From positions 1 to 37,814 of IMG/VR virus record IMGVR_UViG_3300030522_000009: a stretch of 37,814 bases of DNA. One strand, 5' to 3'. The position numbers were made by a program, and so were the translations under genes. Below, piece by piece: positions 23,535 to 37,613 of this stretch (the first letter of the stretch is position 1; every line of letters begins with the position of its first letter). This DNA is from a virus. The notes under the pieces were generated by a model, which ran no database searches, was not told the origin of the DNA, and worked only from the letters and a program-made list of their open reading frames with translations.

Positions 23535-25085
23535 TCATGGTCTGATGGCCCGCGGTTGGCGGAGAGGCGTGACGCCCTCAGCGCGCTCTACGAGCAGCCG
23601 GTCCAACGCTCCCACAGCTGACCTCGGGTGCATCGCCAACCGGGCGTCCAGAGCCTCCTGCCACACCTCCGTCAAGCCCAACATCAGCCGTTCTCGCATC
23701 GCGTCCGTCACGTGCGAGTACCGCGCCTGCACCGAGCCGTCCAGGTGCCCCATCCGCTCGTCCATGAGCTTGGGAGGTGTCCCCAGATCCTCCATCAGGG
23801 TCTTGGCCACGTGCCTCAGCCCGTGTGGAGTCAGCCCTTTGGCTACTGGCGCCCAGCACACCTCGGCCCGCTCTGTAGCCCCACGGCCGCGGGCAGGGAC
23901 CCCGGGCCAGGGCTCGGCCAGTAGAGGCACCAGCCGCTTCGGCTGTGGCGCCTTCGGGGGGTACCAACCGGTGGCGGCCGGCTGGAACAGCCACGTGGCG
24001 AATCCGCTGCGCCGATGGTGCGCGGCGTGCTCGCCGGTCGTTGCTCCCCTCTCGTATCCCAGTTCGGTCATGACCTCGATAACACGGGCGCGCGTTCCTT
24101 CCGTCACCCGCTCCGGTCGGTTCAGGACGTTCGATACGGTCCCTACGGAGACTCCAGCGCGGGCGGCCACTTCCTTCAGTGTGATTCCGCTCCCAGACTT
24201 TCCATTCGGAGCGCCGTATCCCGTGAAGAAATATTTCTTTCCGTGACAGTCGCAGGCTTTCAGGGTGCGGCTCTTGCGGAACTCAATCAAGAGTCGGGAA
24301 AGCCAGGGCGTGACATCGAGAGTCCGGTACGAATCCTCTTTCGGTGGACCCTCCTCTAGCTCCCCGGAATCCAGTTCGTACAGCTGGTGCTCGACACGGA
24401 TTGTTTTCTCCCGGACGTATTCGGGCTCTAGGCCGACGAGTTCACCCCACCGCATTCCTGTCTCGGTGTCGGCCACGATGAGGACGAACTCGTCGTCGCG
24501 GCCGGACAGGAGGCTCGCGCGCTCGGCCACCAGAAGGGCGCCGAGCGCGTTGGTGATCGCTTTCTCCGGGGCACGTCGGGCCGAGTTGCCGGCGCGGCGC
24601 CCGCGGCCTCGCTTACGGGCCGCAGGGTTGGTAGGGATCAGTCCCTGTTCCACCGCGTCGCTCAGCATGACGTGCAGCGTGCCGCGCCACGTCTTGATGC
24701 TGGACGGCTTGTAGCCGGCATCCTTCTCGGTGCGCTCCCACCGCAGCACGGTTTCCTTGTCGAGCTGCTTGAGCGTCAGGTCCCCGAAGTGGGGGAGGAG
24801 GTGCTCCTCGATGTGGTGGCGGTAGTTCTGCATGGTGGACGAGGCGAGCTCCTGCTCGGCGTACCACCGGTTCGCGTACTCCGCGAACGTCTCCAGGCCG
24901 AGCTTCGGATCGCGGTGCCGGCCGCTGCGCACGTCTGCCTCGGCGTCACGCGCCGCCTTCAACGCTTCCGACTTGGTGCGGTAGATGCAGGCGTCCCCGG
25001 CCTCGTCACGAACCGTGAGCTTCGTACCCGCCGCGTCGCGGTAGCGGGCCCGGAAGCCCCCAACCAACTGCTCAGTCCACGCCAT
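23535..25085 (-). CDS. int: Tyrosine integrase with inserted LacI-type HTH
   Basis: A 516-residue site-specific recombinase that would integrate the phage at the host tRNA-Pro gene. Residues 1-60 are an AP2-like arm-binding part, about 65-155 the core-binding SAM-like domain, and the catalytic domain begins around 180. Catalytic residues are visible: R212 (TGMRWGELVGLE), K249, H421 and R424 (HGLRHVAKTL), H447 and Y456 (ARYSHVTD). Between K249 and H421, residues 301-347 are a complete LacI-family helix-turn-helix (TLKEVAARAGVSVGTVSNVL then NRPERVTEGTRARV), coded at 24045-24185. Most integrases of this type are about 380-420 residues, so the extra length is largely this insertion and its flanks (about 285-415). 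All catalytic residues remain. Confidence 0.92.
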   Translation of the reverse strand: MAWTEQLVGGFRARYRDAAGTKLTVRDEAGDACIYRTKSEALKAARDAEADVRSGRHRDPKLGLETFAEYANRWYAEQELASSTMQNYRHHIEEHLLPHFGDLTLKQLDKETVLRWERTEKDAGYKPSSIKTWRGTLHVMLSDAVEQGLIPTNPAARKRGRGRRAGNSARRAPEKAITNALGALLVAERASLLSGRDDEFVLIVADTETGMRWGELVGLEPEYVREKTIRVEHQLYELDSGELEEGPPKEDSYRTLDVTPWLSRLLIEFRKSRTLKACDCHGKKYFFTGYGAPNGKSGSGITLKEVAARAGVSVGTVSNVLNRPERVTEGTRARVIEVMTELGYERGATTGEHAAHHRRSGFATWLFQPAATGWYPPKAPQPKRLVPLLAEPWPGVPARGRGATERAEVCWAPVAKGLTPHGLRHVAKTLMEDLGTPPKLMDERMGHLDGSVQARYSHVTDAMRERLMLGLTEVWQEALDARLAMHPRSAVGALDRLLVERAEGVTPLRQPRAIRP

Positions 25086-27047: not shown

Positions 27048-28136
27048 GTGAACGCATCATCCCAGAACCCGTCGGGGGACCTGCCCCCGGAATCCCCGTA
27101 CGGCCCGCGGCCGTTGCCGACTCCGGCGGGGGTGTTCGCCGCGTACGGCGCCGTCCTCCCGGTGCCCGCTGGTTCGGCCCCCGCCGCACGGCGGCCTGCG
27201 GCCACGGCGGACCCGGACGTGCCGGACTCGCTGGCCGTCGTGGCGGCGGCCGGCCTGATCGGCCCGGTCATGGAGAAGGAAGGCGTCACCGCCCGCGAGG
27301 TCGCCCGGGCGGAGGAGCAGGCAGGCCTCCTGTTCGACCCCGAGCGAGCCGAGGCCATCGCGGACGCCGCGTACCGCCTGGGCGTCGACGACACCAAGGC
27401 GGAGAGGGCGGAACTCGCGCTGCTCGGCCAGGACCCCGAGACCCTCGCCTGGTTCCACACCCGTCTGAACACGGTGGCCGCGCTGTGTGCGGGGCGCCGC
27501 CCCGAGGACCTGCTGACGGTCCGCGAGGTCCTCACCGCCGCCGACGGCCGCCAGTCCTCGGGCGCCCCGCTCACGATCACGTGGGACGGCTCCGTGACGG
27601 GCCTGACCGGGGACACCCCGTACGAGGACACGGTGGTCCCGTGCACGACCGTCAGGGGCGGTCCGGCTGCCCTGGTCCTCGACGACAGCGAGCGCCTGGC
27701 GCTCGGCGGGCTGCTGCTCGCGTCCCTCCACACCGCGGAGGCCTGCCAGACGAAGAGCTGCGGTCGGACCGCCGAGGAAATCGACGAGTCCAACCCGTTT
27801 GTGTCCGGCTGGATCTGCGTGAAGGTCGCCGGCACCGACGGCCCGGCCCGCTGGTGGTGCTCCGTGTGGTGCGCGAACTCGGCGATCACCGCGATCACCG
27901 CGGGCGGCGCCGAGCTGGCCGCCGCCGACCTCGCGGCGGCCGTCGACCCGAACGCCCAGGCGCCGTACGAGGTGCGGGTCGACGGCTCCGAGCCGCACCG
28001 GTTCGAGCCCGAGAGGCTGGGCGAGAGCGACGCCACGCGGCGGCCGGCCCGGTGCCGGCACTGCCCGGGGGCCCGTACGGACGCCATCCACATCTGGGCG
28101 GACGACGACCAGGCCGCCGTGGGCGGTGGCCTGTGA
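27048..28136 (+). CDS. Hypothetical early protein, 362 aa
   Basis: GTG 27048 follows GAGGAACC. Not recognised as a known enzyme. The first 65 residues are proline/alanine-rich and probably disordered. Then come helical parts (AGLIGPVMEKEGVTAREVARAE; RAEAIADAAYRLGVDDTKAE), a central segment with CQTKSCGRTAEEIDESNPFV and WWCSVWCANSAI, and at the end RCRHCPGARTDAIHIWADD, a likely zinc knuckle. It overlaps the next gene as GTGA. It may be a DNA-binding or accessory early protein; first gene of the early operon. Confidence 0.6.
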   Translation: MNASSQNPSGDLPPESPYGPRPLPTPAGVFAAYGAVLPVPAGSAPAARRPAATADPDVPDSLAVVAAAGLIGPVMEKEGVTAREVARAEEQAGLLFDPERAEAIADAAYRLGVDDTKAERAELALLGQDPETLAWFHTRLNTVAALCAGRRPEDLLTVREVLTAADGRQSSGAPLTITWDGSVTGLTGDTPYEDTVVPCTTVRGGPAALVLDDSERLALGGLLLASLHTAEACQTKSCGRTAEEIDESNPFVSGWICVKVAGTDGPARWWCSVWCANSAITAITAGGAELAAADLAAAVDPNAQAPYEVRVDGSEPHRFEPERLGESDATRRPARCRHCPGARTDAIHIWADDDQAAVGGGL

Positions 28137-32960: not shown

Positions 32961-33986
32961 GTGCCAGACCAGCAGCCGGACCGCGCGAGCGGGTCCGTCC
33001 CGCACACCTTCCGCCTGCGGATGGCGTGGCAGTGGGTTCCCCGGATGCCCGTTGCCCTGCGCCGTCAGAAGGCCTTCCTGTATGCCGTGCAGACGGTGGC
33101 GGCGATGGCCGACACGGCCGGCCGTACGCGCTGGCACGTCGAGGGCGAGGACACCCCCGGGCGGCCGCTGCGGCTGAAGGAGCTGGCCGCGGCGATGGGG
33201 TCGGACGAGAAGGACGCCCGCCGCTACCTGACGGCCGCGATCGCCGCCGGGGTCCTCACGGCCGAGCAGGCCCCCAGGCGCGGCCGTACGACCGTGTATG
33301 TGCTGCTCCTGCCGCCGTACACGCCGCGGTGGGAGGCCGCTCTCGCCGTCCTCACCGCGGGCGGCGCGGACGCCGTCGAGGATGACGGCCACGCCCCCGC
33401 CGGCCGGACCGACTTGGGGGAGGCGTCCCCCTTTCTCGACAGCCCTGCCGCACACGCGAGTTCGGGGGACGCCTCCCCGAACTTCCCCCCTGTTGCTGCC
33501 AGTCAAGAACGGGGGACGCCTCCCCGTTGGAGTTCGGGGGACGGTTCCCCGTCGAGAACGGGGGACTGTCCCCCCAATAAACCAGGTAGTACCACGGACA
33601 CCCCCCACGAGATGGCTGGTGAAGGACCTCAACTGCGGGACGCACGTGGGCACAACGAGACCCACGAGCGGGCCGAGGCCGAACCGGACACCTCGGCGGG
33701 CATGCCGCTGCGCTCCGTGGACGGCGCACACTCCGGGGCGCGTACCGGCCGTCCTCGCGCCTCCGTGCCCGACGGGCAGATGCCGCTGCTGATGACCGTC
33801 CCGGCCCCCCACGGCCCCCACGAGCCCCCTGCGGCCCCCGCCCCGGGTGATCGCCCCATCGGCGCGCCCCGGGACGGCTGGCGGCGCCTGGTGGCCCGCG
33901 AGCGGCCCGACGACGCCCACGCGGTGTTCCGCGACCGCTGGAAGGGCGAACACGCCCGCTGCCTGCCCGACCCCACCGGAACCTGA
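32961..33986 (+). CDS. Probable replication initiator with winged-helix domain
   Basis: GTG 32961 with AAGGAGCAG upstream; the frame also extends to 32850, but that start lies across the hairpin and lacks a ribosome site. Of 341 residues, about 15-120 form a winged helix (RQKAFLYAVQTVAAMADTAG; RLKELAAAMGSDEKDARRYL; VLTAEQAPRRGRTTVYVLLL) like those of phage replication initiators and replisome organisers. The middle (about 150-225) is serine/glycine/proline-rich because its DNA carries the iteron-like repeats. The end has DGWRRLVARERPDDAHAVFR. In lambda-type phages the origin lies inside the initiator gene, which fits here. The initiator role is inference. Confidence 0.65.
   Translation: MPDQQPDRASGSVPHTFRLRMAWQWVPRMPVALRRQKAFLYAVQTVAAMADTAGRTRWHVEGEDTPGRPLRLKELAAAMGSDEKDARRYLTAAIAAGVLTAEQAPRRGRTTVYVLLLPPYTPRWEAALAVLTAGGADAVEDDGHAPAGRTDLGEASPFLDSPAAHASSGDASPNFPPVAASQERGTPPRWSSGDGSPSRTGDCPPNKPGSTTDTPHEMAGEGPQLRDARGHNETHERAEAEPDTSAGMPLRSVDGAHSGARTGRPRASVPDGQMPLLMTVPAPHGPHEPPAAPAPGDRPIGAPRDGWRRLVARERPDDAHAVFRDRWKGEHARCLPDPTGT
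33416..33575. repeat. Iteron-like repeats; candidate replication origin
   Basis: Five copies of a unit around CGGGGGACGCCTCCCCG have their G-runs starting at 33416, 33464, 33511, 33536 and 33560, so spacings are 48, 47, 25 and 24, close to multiples of 24. Each is itself partly palindromic (GGGGA facing TCCCC). Directly after them the sequence turns A/T-rich for this genome (AATAAACCAGGTAGTACC, about 33576-33593), as expected for a duplex-opening element. They lie inside the winged-helix gene that may encode the initiator. Confidence 0.6.
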
Positions 33987-34018
33987 CCCCGCTCCCCGAC
34001 CCGGAAGGACCCCGTGCA

Positions 34019-34360
34019 ATGCCCTACCAGAAGCCGCGCCCCGCCCCGCCCAACGGCCCCGGCCAATGCCCACGCTGCTCGGCCGAGGTGTTCTGGTGCG
34101 TCACCGAAGCCAACCGCGTCCCCCAGGCCGTCGACCGCGACCGCGACCCGAAAGGCAACCAGGCCATGCGCATCGACCGCGTCGGCCGCTACCTCGTCCG
34201 CCAGCTCACCAACGAGCGCAAGACCCCCGAGGGCAGCGAAACCCTCCACCAGCCCCACATCGCCACCTGCCCCAACCCGGCGCCCAAGCCCGCCAGGAAG
34301 CGGCTCTCCGCCGCCCGGGTCAGCGTCGGCATCCGCCCGGTCAGGTGGCAGCAGCGATGA
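34019..34360 (+). CDS. Hypothetical protein with CPRC motif, 113 aa
   Basis: ATG 34019 after GGAAGGAC. It contains GQCPRCSAEVFWCVTEANRV near the N-terminus, a likely zinc ribbon, and at the end a basic helical part (KPARKRLSAARVSVGIRPVR). The middle has NQAMRIDRVGRYLVRQLTNE. It is the kind of small nucleic-acid-binding protein common in the early regions of actinophages; no specific role recognised. It overlaps the next gene as ATGA. Confidence 0.62.
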   Translation: MPYQKPRPAPPNGPGQCPRCSAEVFWCVTEANRVPQAVDRDRDPKGNQAMRIDRVGRYLVRQLTNERKTPEGSETLHQPHIATCPNPAPKPARKRLSAARVSVGIRPVRWQQR

Positions 34361-34710
34361 CCCACCAGCCCCACACCGGACACCGCGCCGTCATCCAGAC
34401 CGCCCTCGAGGACTGGTGGCTCAACACCGACCTCAGCAAGCCCTTCGAGCCCCACGACGTCGCCACCCAGGTCGACACCTACCTCACCCACAGCGGCTAC
34501 ACCATCACCCCCGACAACCCCAGGACACCCATGCCCACCCGACGCGCCATCACCGGCACCGTCCTCGTCGCGCTCCTCTGCGCCGCCTCCACCACCGGCA
34601 CCGCCATCCGCCACGAATGGGGCTGGACCATGGCCGGCGCCCTCATCACCGGCTTCCTCACCCGCGAAGCCACCCGCGCCATCAACGACCGCCGCCAGAA
34701 CCGCACATGA
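34357..34710 (+). CDS. Membrane protein, 117 aa
   Basis: ATG 34357 in an ATGA overlap. A soluble N-terminal half (1-62; HRAVIQTALEDWWLNTDLSK) is followed by two hydrophobic helices (about 64-82 and 88-102: ITGTVLVALLCAASTTG and TMAGALITGFLT) and a basic end. It may be a membrane-anchored accessory; no known family. It overlaps the next membrane protein as ATGA. Confidence 0.6.
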   Translation: MTHQPHTGHRAVIQTALEDWWLNTDLSKPFEPHDVATQVDTYLTHSGYTITPDNPRTPMPTRRAITGTVLVALLCAASTTGTAIRHEWGWTMAGALITGFLTREATRAINDRRQNRT

Positions 34711-34883
34711 CCGACACCCCGAGCCCACTGATCACCCTCATCTGCCTGGCTGCCGCCGCCATCACCCTCATCAGCCTCACCGCCCGCCACACACGCCGAC
34801 GCACCGTCAACCGCCTCCGCCGACACGGCCACCTCGACGCCGCCAACCTCATCGACCCCCACGACGAATGGAACGACCGGTGA
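34707..34883 (+). CDS. Small membrane protein, 58 aa
   Basis: ATG 34707, ATGA overlap. One hydrophobic helix (about 8-26, LITLICLAAAAITLISLTA) and a strongly basic, histidine-containing tail (RHTRRRTVNRLRRHGHLDAA). It forms a pair with the preceding membrane protein. Function unknown; supported by overlaps at both ends. Confidence 0.58.
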   Translation: MTDTPSPLITLICLAAAAITLISLTARHTRRRTVNRLRRHGHLDAANLIDPHDEWNDR

Positions 34884-35137
34884 CCACGCCCACCACCAGC
34901 GACATCACCGCCGCCAACCTGCGCACCGCACGCGAAAAGGCCGGCCTCACCCGCGCCGCCTTCGTCACCCTCCTTGCCGAACACGGTCACACCACCAGCA
35001 TCCACACCCTCCGCTCCAAGGAAACCCGCCGCAACCACACCATCGACGTCGACCTGACCGTCGCCGCCAGCCGCGCCCTCGGCATACCTGTCACCCACCC
35101 CCTCGGCCTCACCAACCCCACCGGCAGACAGCCGTGA
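34880..35137 (+). CDS. Small XRE-like HTH protein, 85 aa
   Basis: The start is GTG 34880 (GTGA overlap); an ATG four codons earlier is possible but inside the previous gene. Residues 10-70 read as a helix-turn-helix: NLRTAREKAGLTRAAFVTLL, HTTSIHTLRSKETRRNHTID and LTVAASRALGIPVTHPL. This is another small regulator of the early region, with no visible partner. Confidence 0.68.
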   Translation: MTTPTTSDITAANLRTAREKAGLTRAAFVTLLAEHGHTTSIHTLRSKETRRNHTIDVDLTVAASRALGIPVTHPLGLTNPTGRQP

Positions 35138-35256
35138 CCCCTCGCACGCGCGCGCCAGCGATCACGCGCGCGCGAACGCAGGTACGCCCGCGCGCGAAAC
35201 ACCACCCCTACCCACCAGTACGAATGCCCGCCCGCCACCACCCGGAAGGAACGATC
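35138..35256. other. Gap with three alternating CG tracts
   Basis: No convincing gene; a GTG at 35134 could extend the next frame through it, but the ribosome site GGAAGGA favours a start at 35257. It contains three alternating CG tracts (about 35144-35156, 35163-35174 and 35186-35198), the first two with CACGCGCGCGC in common. Alternating CG can adopt Z-DNA. It may hold a promoter, a protein-binding site or neither. Confidence 0.4.
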
Positions 35257-35964
35257 ATGACCACAGTGCCACCCAGCCCCTACAGCCCCTACGCCACCGC
35301 CGACCCCGACGTACGCCACCTCATCCCGCTCCCGGAGGAGTACGGACCCCCCGCCCCCGGCCGTCTCCTCCCCGCCGGCTGCCACGAACTGGCCGTCGTG
35401 TCAGACGACTCGGCCGAGATCGACCCCGCCACCCGGCCGCTCCCCAGAGGCCTGTGCGCCCCGTGTGTCGCCTCCATGCGCGGCCTCGCCGTCCCCGACG
35501 ACACCAGGCCTCTCACCAACTGCCGCACCTGCGGTGGCGAGACCCGCTACAACCACCTGTGCGCCCTCTGCCGCGCCGAGGCCCACCAGCTCTGGCAGAC
35601 CGTCCGCACCACCCCGGCACCCACCCCCACACAGCAGCCGGCCACCGGGTCCTTCGTCGTCCTCGGCGGCCCCCTGCGCATCACCCCCGACAGCTTCTGC
35701 GAGCACGGCGACCTCGCGTTCACCGCCCGCCTGCAGGGCTACCGCACCGTGGGCGACCAACACGACGAGCGACTCGATCTCGTCCTCCCACGCTGCTACC
35801 TCGCGAAAGTCGTCGGCTCCGTCCTCGCCATCGTCGACCACGAATCCGGCACCAACCCCGAAGCACACGAGCGCTTCACCGACACCGTCAACCAGTCCCA
35901 GGCCACCGTCCGCGGCGCCCTCCAGCACCTCGCCGCCCTCCGGAACAACGAGGACCAGCGATGA
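35257..35964 (+). CDS. Hypothetical protein with zinc-ribbon core, 235 aa
   Basis: The start is ATG 35257, with GGAAGGA seven bases upstream. An N-terminal proline-rich segment precedes three CxxC pairs: GLCAPCVASMRG, LTNCRTCGGETRYN and LCALCRAEAHQLW (about 66-110), which should form one or two zinc-binding folds. The C-terminal half is an alpha/beta part (DLAFTARLQGYRTVG; RLDLVLPRCYLAKVVGSVLA; VRGALQHLAALRN). No enzymatic motif seen. Coupled to the next gene by ATGA. Confidence 0.62.
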   Translation: MTTVPPSPYSPYATADPDVRHLIPLPEEYGPPAPGRLLPAGCHELAVVSDDSAEIDPATRPLPRGLCAPCVASMRGLAVPDDTRPLTNCRTCGGETRYNHLCALCRAEAHQLWQTVRTTPAPTPTQQPATGSFVVLGGPLRITPDSFCEHGDLAFTARLQGYRTVGDQHDERLDLVLPRCYLAKVVGSVLAIVDHESGTNPEAHERFTDTVNQSQATVRGALQHLAALRNNEDQR

Positions 35965-36464
35965 CGGCCGTCGGCTGGGACGACCAGGGCGACGAGTCGT
36001 GCAGCGGCCCCTGCTGCCCACCGGCCGCACCCGCCGAGACACCCCGCGGACCCGGTCTCCTCGCGCGCATCGGCATCACACTGCGCACCGCGAGGAAGGG
36101 CCAGCCGCCGCAAGTACACCCGCACGAGCGGGGCGCGGGCACGGACGACGTGTTCAAGGCCGTCGTCAAGGACCGGCAGGGGTTCACCGTCCTGTACGGG
36201 ATGTACGGCGCCAAAGCCACGGCCGTCGTCACCGGCGCCGTCGCCAACATCGACCTCACGCCCGTCATCAACCTCGGCGTGCGCTCACTGAGGATCGCCC
36301 TCGCCATCGGCCCCACCCGTGCCGAAGTCGAACAGATACTCGAACGGGACTTTGGTCCCCTCCCGTTCATCTGCCCACAGTGCAGCCGCAGCAGCTGGCA
36401 CCCCCAGGACAAGCAGTACGGCTACTGCGGCGCCTGCCACGCCTACACCGGAGAACCCTCATGA
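35961..36464 (+). CDS. Hypothetical protein with C-terminal zinc ribbon, 167 aa
   Basis: ATG 35961 in an ATGA overlap. The N-terminus carries several cysteines (SCSGPCCPPAAP). The middle is an alpha/beta segment (KAVVKDRQGFTVLYGMYGAK; NLGVRSLRIALAIG). The end has FICPQCSRSSWHPQDKQYGY plus CGACHAYTG, a clear four-cysteine zinc ribbon. I recall this kind of protein as common in Streptomyces phage early regions. Role unknown. Confidence 0.62.
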   Translation: MTAVGWDDQGDESCSGPCCPPAAPAETPRGPGLLARIGITLRTARKGQPPQVHPHERGAGTDDVFKAVVKDRQGFTVLYGMYGAKATAVVTGAVANIDLTPVINLGVRSLRIALAIGPTRAEVEQILERDFGPLPFICPQCSRSSWHPQDKQYGYCGACHAYTGEPS

Positions 36465-36868
36465 AGCAGCCCACCGCCGAGGACCTCGCCGCCGTCCGCG
36501 AGCAGCTGCGCGAGGAGATCAGCGACGCCCGCGGCACCCTCAAAGATCTCCGCCAAGAGATCAAAACCGCCCGCGAACTCATCGCCGCCACCCGCCAGTT
36601 CGTGACCCGACTCGTCGAGGAAGACGTCAAGGCCACCCTGAAAGCAGAGGTCACCACGCAGGTCGCCCTCCTCGGGAAGATGACCAAAGAGGCCATGCGC
36701 AAGTCCGTCGACAAGGTCAACAAGGAGTTCGACACCCTCGCCGACCTCCTCATGGGCCGCGAACGAGCGCCCGGGGACCGCGAGAAGCGCTCCATCCCCG
36801 AACTCCTCGAAGACCCAGCCATCCTCGCCCGCGCCCAGCGCAACGCCCGCCAGGCCGACCATGACTAG
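36461..36868 (+). CDS. Coiled-coil protein, 135 aa
   Basis: ATG 36461 in an ATGA overlap. Almost entirely helical: LAAVREQLREEISDARGTLK, DLRQEIKTARELIAATRQFV, TRLVEEDVKATLKAEVTTQV, then KMTKEAMRKSVDKVNKEFDT, with regular hydrophobic spacing suggesting a long coiled coil from about 5 to 95. No cysteine or catalytic residue pattern. It could act as a scaffold or oligomerisation partner of the neighbouring zinc-ribbon proteins. Confidence 0.62.
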   Translation: MKQPTAEDLAAVREQLREEISDARGTLKDLRQEIKTARELIAATRQFVTRLVEEDVKATLKAEVTTQVALLGKMTKEAMRKSVDKVNKEFDTLADLLMGRERAPGDREKRSIPELLEDPAILARAQRNARQADHD

Positions 36869-37613
36869 CTGCGCCGCCCCCGACTGCGGACGCCCCCGGG
36901 ACACCGGGGGCACCCGCCGCCTCTGCCACCGCTGCACCGACCGCCTCACCGCACACCTGCACGAACTCCAGTGGCAGCTCCCGCACCTGCGCGCCAGCCT
37001 CTACCCCGAACGCAGCCCCACCACCGGCACCGTCCATGGCGGACGCGCCCACTCACCCATGCCCGCACGAGCCGATGTACTCAACCTCCTCGGCGCCGGT
37101 TCCAACTCGGCCGTCCTCGACGACCCTTACGACCAGGCGCGCGGCGACCAGGACGGCCCGATCCCGATCGACACGATGCTCCGGGGCTGGGCCGAGATGC
37201 TCGCCGGCCACATCCGCCTCGCCCCCACCCCGTGGCGACGCCCCGGGCGTACCTGGGTGGCCTGGCACATCGCGTACCTCCCCTGGACCCTCAGCGCCGA
37301 CTGGGTCGGCGACTTCCACCAGGAACTCGCCGCCGTCCTCACCCGCGTACGGCGCATCACCCACACTGAACCCCAACGCCACGCCCAGGACGCCCCGTGC
37401 CCCTCCTGCGACGCCTTCGGCCTGGTCGACGAGGACTGGGCCAACTACATCGAGTGCACGGTGTGCGAACTCCTCCTCACCCGCGCCGAATACGCCGCCC
37501 ACGCCCAGCGCGTCATGCCCGGCCTCTACCGCACCGCCCTGTCGATCCTCGTCAAGCAGCAGAAGAAGCAGGCACCCGTCGACGCCGAAAGGCAGTCAGA
37601 AGCGGCGTCCTGA
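36861..37613 (+). CDS. Hypothetical protein with two zinc-binding segments, 250 aa
   Basis: ATG 36861 overlaps the preceding gene by 8 bases. The N-terminal CAAPDCGRPRDTGG and RLCHRCTDRL (about 4-27) form one cysteine cluster; CPSCDAFGLVDEDWANYIEC with TVCELLLTRAEY (about 179-212) forms another. Between them is a tryptophan-rich helical part (MLRGWAEMLAGHIRLAPTPW; WHIAYLPWTLSADWVGDFHQ). It is the last gene of the early operon, ended by the 37661-37690 terminator. A nucleic-acid-binding role is plausible but unproven. Confidence 0.65.
   Translation: MTSCAAPDCGRPRDTGGTRRLCHRCTDRLTAHLHELQWQLPHLRASLYPERSPTTGTVHGGRAHSPMPARADVLNLLGAGSNSAVLDDPYDQARGDQDGPIPIDTMLRGWAEMLAGHIRLAPTPWRRPGRTWVAWHIAYLPWTLSADWVGDFHQELAAVLTRVRRITHTEPQRHAQDAPCPSCDAFGLVDEDWANYIECTVCELLLTRAEYAAHAQRVMPGLYRTALSILVKQQKKQAPVDAERQSEAAS

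Follow-up and report, generated by a model that had tools for sequence, protein, structure and literature searches.

In bacteriophage lambda the origin of replication lies within gene O, and its iterons are imperfect inverted repeats to which O binds as a dimer, with an AT-rich tract after them (PMC7466680). The locus described here comes from a viral record of 37,814 bases (the window, meaning the whole stretch of DNA that was analyzed) and resembles the O/ori-lambda module of lambdoid and Stx phages in several respects. The putative initiator gene carries its own iterons mid-gene, the iterons are imperfect inverted repeats (dimer-bound in lambda and probably so in the window family), less stable DNA lies beside the last iteron, and the number of iterons varies among relatives (PMC7466680). 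The first-pass annotation had already drawn the comparison with lambda, and aptly, but it counted the palindromic units as a difference when they are in fact a likeness. The differences lie elsewhere: iterons of the window family are GC-rich (GTTCGGGGGAC..CCCCGAAC) with a spacing of 24–47 bp, and no P-like loader or DnaB-interacting partner was found in a search that covered the DnaC/IstB and DnaB families in 30 records. By sequence, the window protein falls outside the lambda O family; neither it nor any of 50 homologs has a Pfam match to Phage_rep_O, and its fold resembles lambda O-like models only distantly. No description of this initiator family was found among open-licence papers, and we conclude that the locus is very probably an in-gene origin of the lambda O kind whose initiator belongs to an undescribed family.

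Three other systems invite comparison. The rep/iteron loci of the Streptomyces plasmids pWTY27, pFP11, and SCP2 are alike in that an actinomycete initiator binds inverted repeats, either beside its gene or within it; pSLA2 also belongs among these loci. RepA of pWTY27 binds a long inverted repeat, and the iterons of that plasmid are described as adjacent to genes, not inside them (PMC3583192). A tblastn search of 72,556 plasmids returned nothing for the window protein or its relative L099, and for L100, another relative, a single weak match over 37 C-terminal residues; kinship with plasmid proteins was rejected, as no match spanned the whole length. In TubR/tubC plasmid partition, a winged-helix protein is likewise paired with an iteron array, and TubR is a structure match of the window protein, but no tubulin-like GTPase or ParA is present in any of the 30 records. 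Finally, the DNA pattern used to search for the array also recovered unrelated phage proteins (L014, L030, L036, L031, and L037) in which GC-rich palindromic arrays directly follow a winged helix. An HTH_36 domain is present in the three that were tested (L014, L031, and L037). These proteins share the layout of an in-gene array after a winged helix and differ in sequence and spacing; a weak HTH_36 match occurs in 6 of 50 members of the window family, and profile comparison gave no support for kinship (hhalign probability 2%).

The window has a G+C content of 60–76 per cent (per 500 bases), and a Pfam scan of its main open reading frames (ORFs) identified terminase, portal, capsid, tail tube, amidase, and tyrosine integrase genes, with no other replication gene. 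In the integrase ORF (23535–25085, minus strand) a LacI-type helix-turn-helix (PF00356, E = 3.7e-16, amino acids 302–345) sits between the core-binding and catalytic parts, and the homolog in L094 has one as well (E = 7.8e-6). The putative initiator gene occupies positions 32961–33986 on the plus strand and encodes 341 amino acids from a GTG start. Its product itself matches nothing in Pfam or PHROG, and a sequence search against solved structures gave weak matches only. The first-pass reading of this ORF as a winged-helix gene is borne out by an AlphaFold2 prediction made with 50 homologs (pLDDT 83.7, pTM 0.77), which places the winged-helix domain, conserved across the 50 aligned sequences, at 32991–33386 (plus strand) and the recognition helix at residues 83–96. 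The predicted fold matches winged helices of a generic kind, among them repressors and TubR, a partition protein. Toward the C-terminus a short QMPLL motif (33777–33791, plus strand) is common to part of the family, and in other members a zinc-finger-like CxxC..HxxC terminus takes its place; the family swaps its C-terminal module, either zinc-finger-like or QxPLL. The latter presumably resembles a beta-clamp-binding motif. Immediately downstream of the putative initiator (34019–34360), and in 20 related loci, lies a gene for a small cysteine-containing protein (phrog_5984), a possible partner of the initiator.

Five 15-bp palindromic cores lie inside the ORF just past the predicted winged helix, and all five units that had been proposed for positions 33411–33600 are present. 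Unit 1 (33413–33435, core 33417–33431) is on the minus strand, inverted relative to the others, and unit 2 (GTTCGGGGGACGCCTCCCCGAAC, 33460–33482, core 33464–33478), with arms of 8, is followed on the plus strand by unit 3 (33507–33529, core 33511–33525), unit 4 (33532–33554, core 33536–33550), and unit 5 (33556–33578). The common unit sequence CGGGGGACGCCTCCCCG proposed initially is exact in two units only: units 1 and 4 each carry two mismatches to it, and unit 5 is divergent and symmetric, with a different core (33560–33574, GGGGGACTGTCCCCC). Likewise, the last three of the spacings given at first (48, 47, 25, and 24) stand, and the first is 47 rather than 48. The array is more than would be expected by chance, given that the gene contains eight palindromic repeat pairs against a mean of 0.54 and a maximum of 4 in 500 synonymous-codon shuffles, and that matches to GGGGGACNNNNCCCC in 24 genomes are nearly confined to it, all but two falling within the array. 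One iteron-like site outside the array, GGGGGACCTGCCCCC at 27074–27088 near the start of the ORF at 27048–28136, may be a chance match. The five units occupy all three reading frames, and the repeat is therefore not a peptide repeat.

Homologs of the window protein include OnionKnight gp46 and Chymera gp45, both from Streptomyces phages and both with an array at the same place; among 51 distinct homologs every named host, of phages and prophages alike, is Streptomyces. A scan of viral contigs with the DNA array only gave 36 loci, 25 of which encode a homologous protein with the array inside the ORF, and it also gave L042, an array fragment of the family. Protein-based scans contributed 33 viral loci and another 19 in Streptomyces genomes; an initial scan of viral sequences with the window protein by itself had produced no matches, for lack of conserved peptides. 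The first-pass annotation had named repeats missing from homologs that keep the gene as evidence against an origin, and the opposite was seen: 49 of the 51 distinct homologs, some of them recovered through the protein only, have the array at the same position, as scored by an automatic finder that required at least three units. One of the two that fail, L063, is cut by a contig end and has a fuller copy (L088) with an array, and the other, L067, carries palindromes of another sequence; L086 and L087 have three clear units each only. Under a GGGG/CCCC rule 13 homologs seemed to have no array, and on reading, all but L067 proved to have changed cores (e.g. GTTCGGGTCACCGCGACCCGAAC) that keep the same spacing in the absence of the GGGG..CCCC form. 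Conservation of the array extends to silent positions. Among codon pairs that encode the same amino acid with fourfold-degenerate codons, third-base agreement is 0.76 in the array vs. 0.50 in the winged-helix part; it is also high 3' of the array (0.66) and in the C-terminal part (0.69), so silent conservation is not special to the candidate unwinding element described below. When the right-half ORFs of the window were compared with loci that had been fetched because they carry this gene or the array, 79 loci had the winged-helix domain and 20 had the next most common early gene.

Compensatory variation among homologs had been proposed at the outset as a check, and the iteron core and the recognition helix do indeed differ in step. 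With iteron positions numbered 0–22 in the 23-mer GTTCGGGGGACNNNNCCCCGAAC, the residues that covary with pairs 7/15 and 3/19 are D82 and E83 of the window protein, encoded at 33204–33209 (plus strand) at the start of the recognition helix. Residue 82 matches pair 7/15 in 53 of 53 members: Asp82 is found with G at position 7, Arg82 with C:G, and Ser, Asn, or Ala82 with T:A or C:A. Across 48 genomes this residue accounts for the entire label entropy at position 7, and the next best of 142 alignment columns reaches 0.57. For position 3 the best column is residue 83 (0.94), with Glu83 accompanying C:G at pair 3/19 in 40 genomes and Val, Ile, or Leu accompanying other pairs in most others; the exceptions are Gln with C:G or C:T, Leu with C:T, and one Glu with C:A. 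The pairings at residue 82 agree with the chemistry established for protein–DNA contacts: aspartate would face the cytosine, and arginine the guanine, opposite position 7.

This association is manifest in phylogeny as well. On a first tree, built without the columns for residues 82 and 83, position 7 and residue 82 each changed six times and always jointly. Searches of viral contigs for GGGCC..GGCCC and GGGTC..GACCC cores then added five new members that all fit the code: four carry Arg82 with C:G, a match that a lone previous member had led us to predict, and the fifth carries Ala82 with T:A. A search for cores with A:T at position 7 (GGGAC..GTCCC) found none. The whole set contains at least eight coincident changes on the tree, and the six independent pairs that have support all agree (p = 0.031, the minimum for six pairs, in a tree test that recombination could blur). 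The first locus set was found in part by a GGGGGAC pattern and is consequently enriched in Asp82, a bias from which the protein-based and alternative-core sets are free. The sequences argue strongly that the protein would bind the array. We consider it likely, with somewhat less assurance than for the origin itself, that these proteins form an undescribed phage initiator family in which residue 82 sets pair 7/15 and residue 83 sets pair 3/19, and that, since a single piece of DNA holds both, initiator and origin diverge in concert many times over into separate replication specificities.

Spacings across the family cluster at 24/25, 35/36, and 46/47, about 11 bp apart, and others are rare. Their coherence is 0.92–0.94 at a period of 10.5–11 vs. 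0.44 at a period of 3, or 0.93–0.96 vs. 0 when each distinct spacing is counted once, which is suggestive of helical phasing, the distinct groups being few. Palindrome pairs 1, 3, 7, and 8 are complementary above all-genome shuffles (242 units), and among one genome's own units complementarity is not above shuffles, except weakly at pair 1. Covariation of the arms between genomes would then reflect two site halves read by one protein, presumably a dimer, that differs from genome to genome. A hairpin would be expected to compensate within a genome too, and the pattern thus fits a dimeric protein rather than an RNA hairpin.

Directly 3' of unit 5 lies a candidate unwinding element (33575–33645), composed of the least stable 50 bp of the gene (33575–33624), which begin immediately after the array, and the start of a stretch that is conserved in the family (CCCAGG..TACC...GGCTG.GGT...CAACCTCAGG). 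For the DNA 3' of the array, the median over the family lies at the 3rd percentile of stability within a locus. The A/T-rich patch reported in the first-pass annotation does exist, and the least stable 50-mer falls there, but the enrichment is modest, at 40 per cent A+T in the first 50 nucleotides after unit 5 vs. a mean of 30 per cent. In the window a strong negative GC skew (−0.17 to −0.42) extends over 34000–37500, starting just past the array. A drop in skew at the array, weaker than that of the window, is seen in 29 of 33 loci of the family; GC skew had been put forward as a means of checking the origin, and the drop is indeed there, but it is confounded by coding and constitutes weak evidence.

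There is reason to think that these features together mark an origin. It is highly likely that the window gene belongs to a temperate Streptomyces phage and encodes its replication initiator, a winged-helix protein, and that the five in-gene iterons are both its own binding sites and the phage origin. The initial claim that the genome has no other replication gene holds for DnaB, DnaC/IstB, PolA, D5_N, and Prim-Pol over the whole record, and none of these families had a match in the 30 records, although each was found in named control genomes. The chain of events that we infer, from dimerisation and physical binding through melting and host helicase recruitment to origin activity, would begin with initiator dimers binding each palindrome, where the recognition helix would read each half-site at pair 7/15 through residue 82 and at pair 3/19 through residue 83. 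On the sites, offset from one another in steps of roughly a helical turn, a nucleoprotein complex would form, the DNA of lower stability just 3' of unit 5 would melt, and the host helicase and replisome would be recruited for theta replication, the host helicase being invoked because the phage is without a helicase, loader, primase, or polymerase of the tested families.

A bound array might instead serve as an operator or looping site through which transcription of the early operon is controlled. The winged-helix fold is closest to MarR-type repressors, and palindrome binding by a dimer suits a repressor, yet the array is mid-gene and not at a promoter, the sites are almost absent elsewhere in the 24 genomes, the least stable DNA adjoins the last site, and phages that used the array in this way would be left without a replication gene of the tested families. 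We regard an operator as unlikely. Scattered operators were rejected, as the sites are confined to the array bar two single matches. A centromere-like site, with the protein as a partition adaptor like TubR or ParB, is quite improbable: both a ParA-type ATPase and a tubulin-like GTPase are absent from all 30 records, and the tyrosine integrase of the window implies a prophage that is probably chromosomal and for which partition would be needless, even though TubR is among the structure matches and such proteins bind iteron arrays too. An origin is favoured over an operator or centromere because other replication genes of the tested families are missing, the sites are confined to the array, and the DNA on its 3' side is unstable.

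That the palindromes act as hairpins in RNA or single-stranded DNA, for instance in control of translation or transcription, is slightly less probable than a centromere; such strong GC-rich palindromes in a presumably transcribed region might suggest it, but complementarity of the arms within a genome does not exceed shuffling of that genome's own units except weakly at one pair, the spacing suggests helical phasing, the core sequence tracks a recognition-helix residue, and no Rfam match was returned even at E = 1. Least probable of all is a low-complexity protein linker whose coding sequence is repetitive by coincidence. Linker peptides such as SSGD.SP do recur, but all three reading frames are represented among the units, conservation at silent positions exceeds that in the structured domain, and the spacing is not a multiple of three; on these grounds a repeat at the protein level was rejected. 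As read from sequence, the array is very probably a lambda-like replication origin that is recognized by the protein encoded across it.

A likely origin and initiator can thus be assigned to temperate Streptomyces phages that are without a replication gene of the tested families and in which the annotation of this gene has gone no further than hypothetical. Because one residue covaries naturally with one base pair, the specificity of the initiator is directly testable, and the code could yield sets of mutually compatible Streptomyces replicons. Unrelated phage proteins with an HTH_36 domain show this layout too, so in-gene arrays may be common, and palindromic iterons within a gene may be a general sign by which phage origins can be found.
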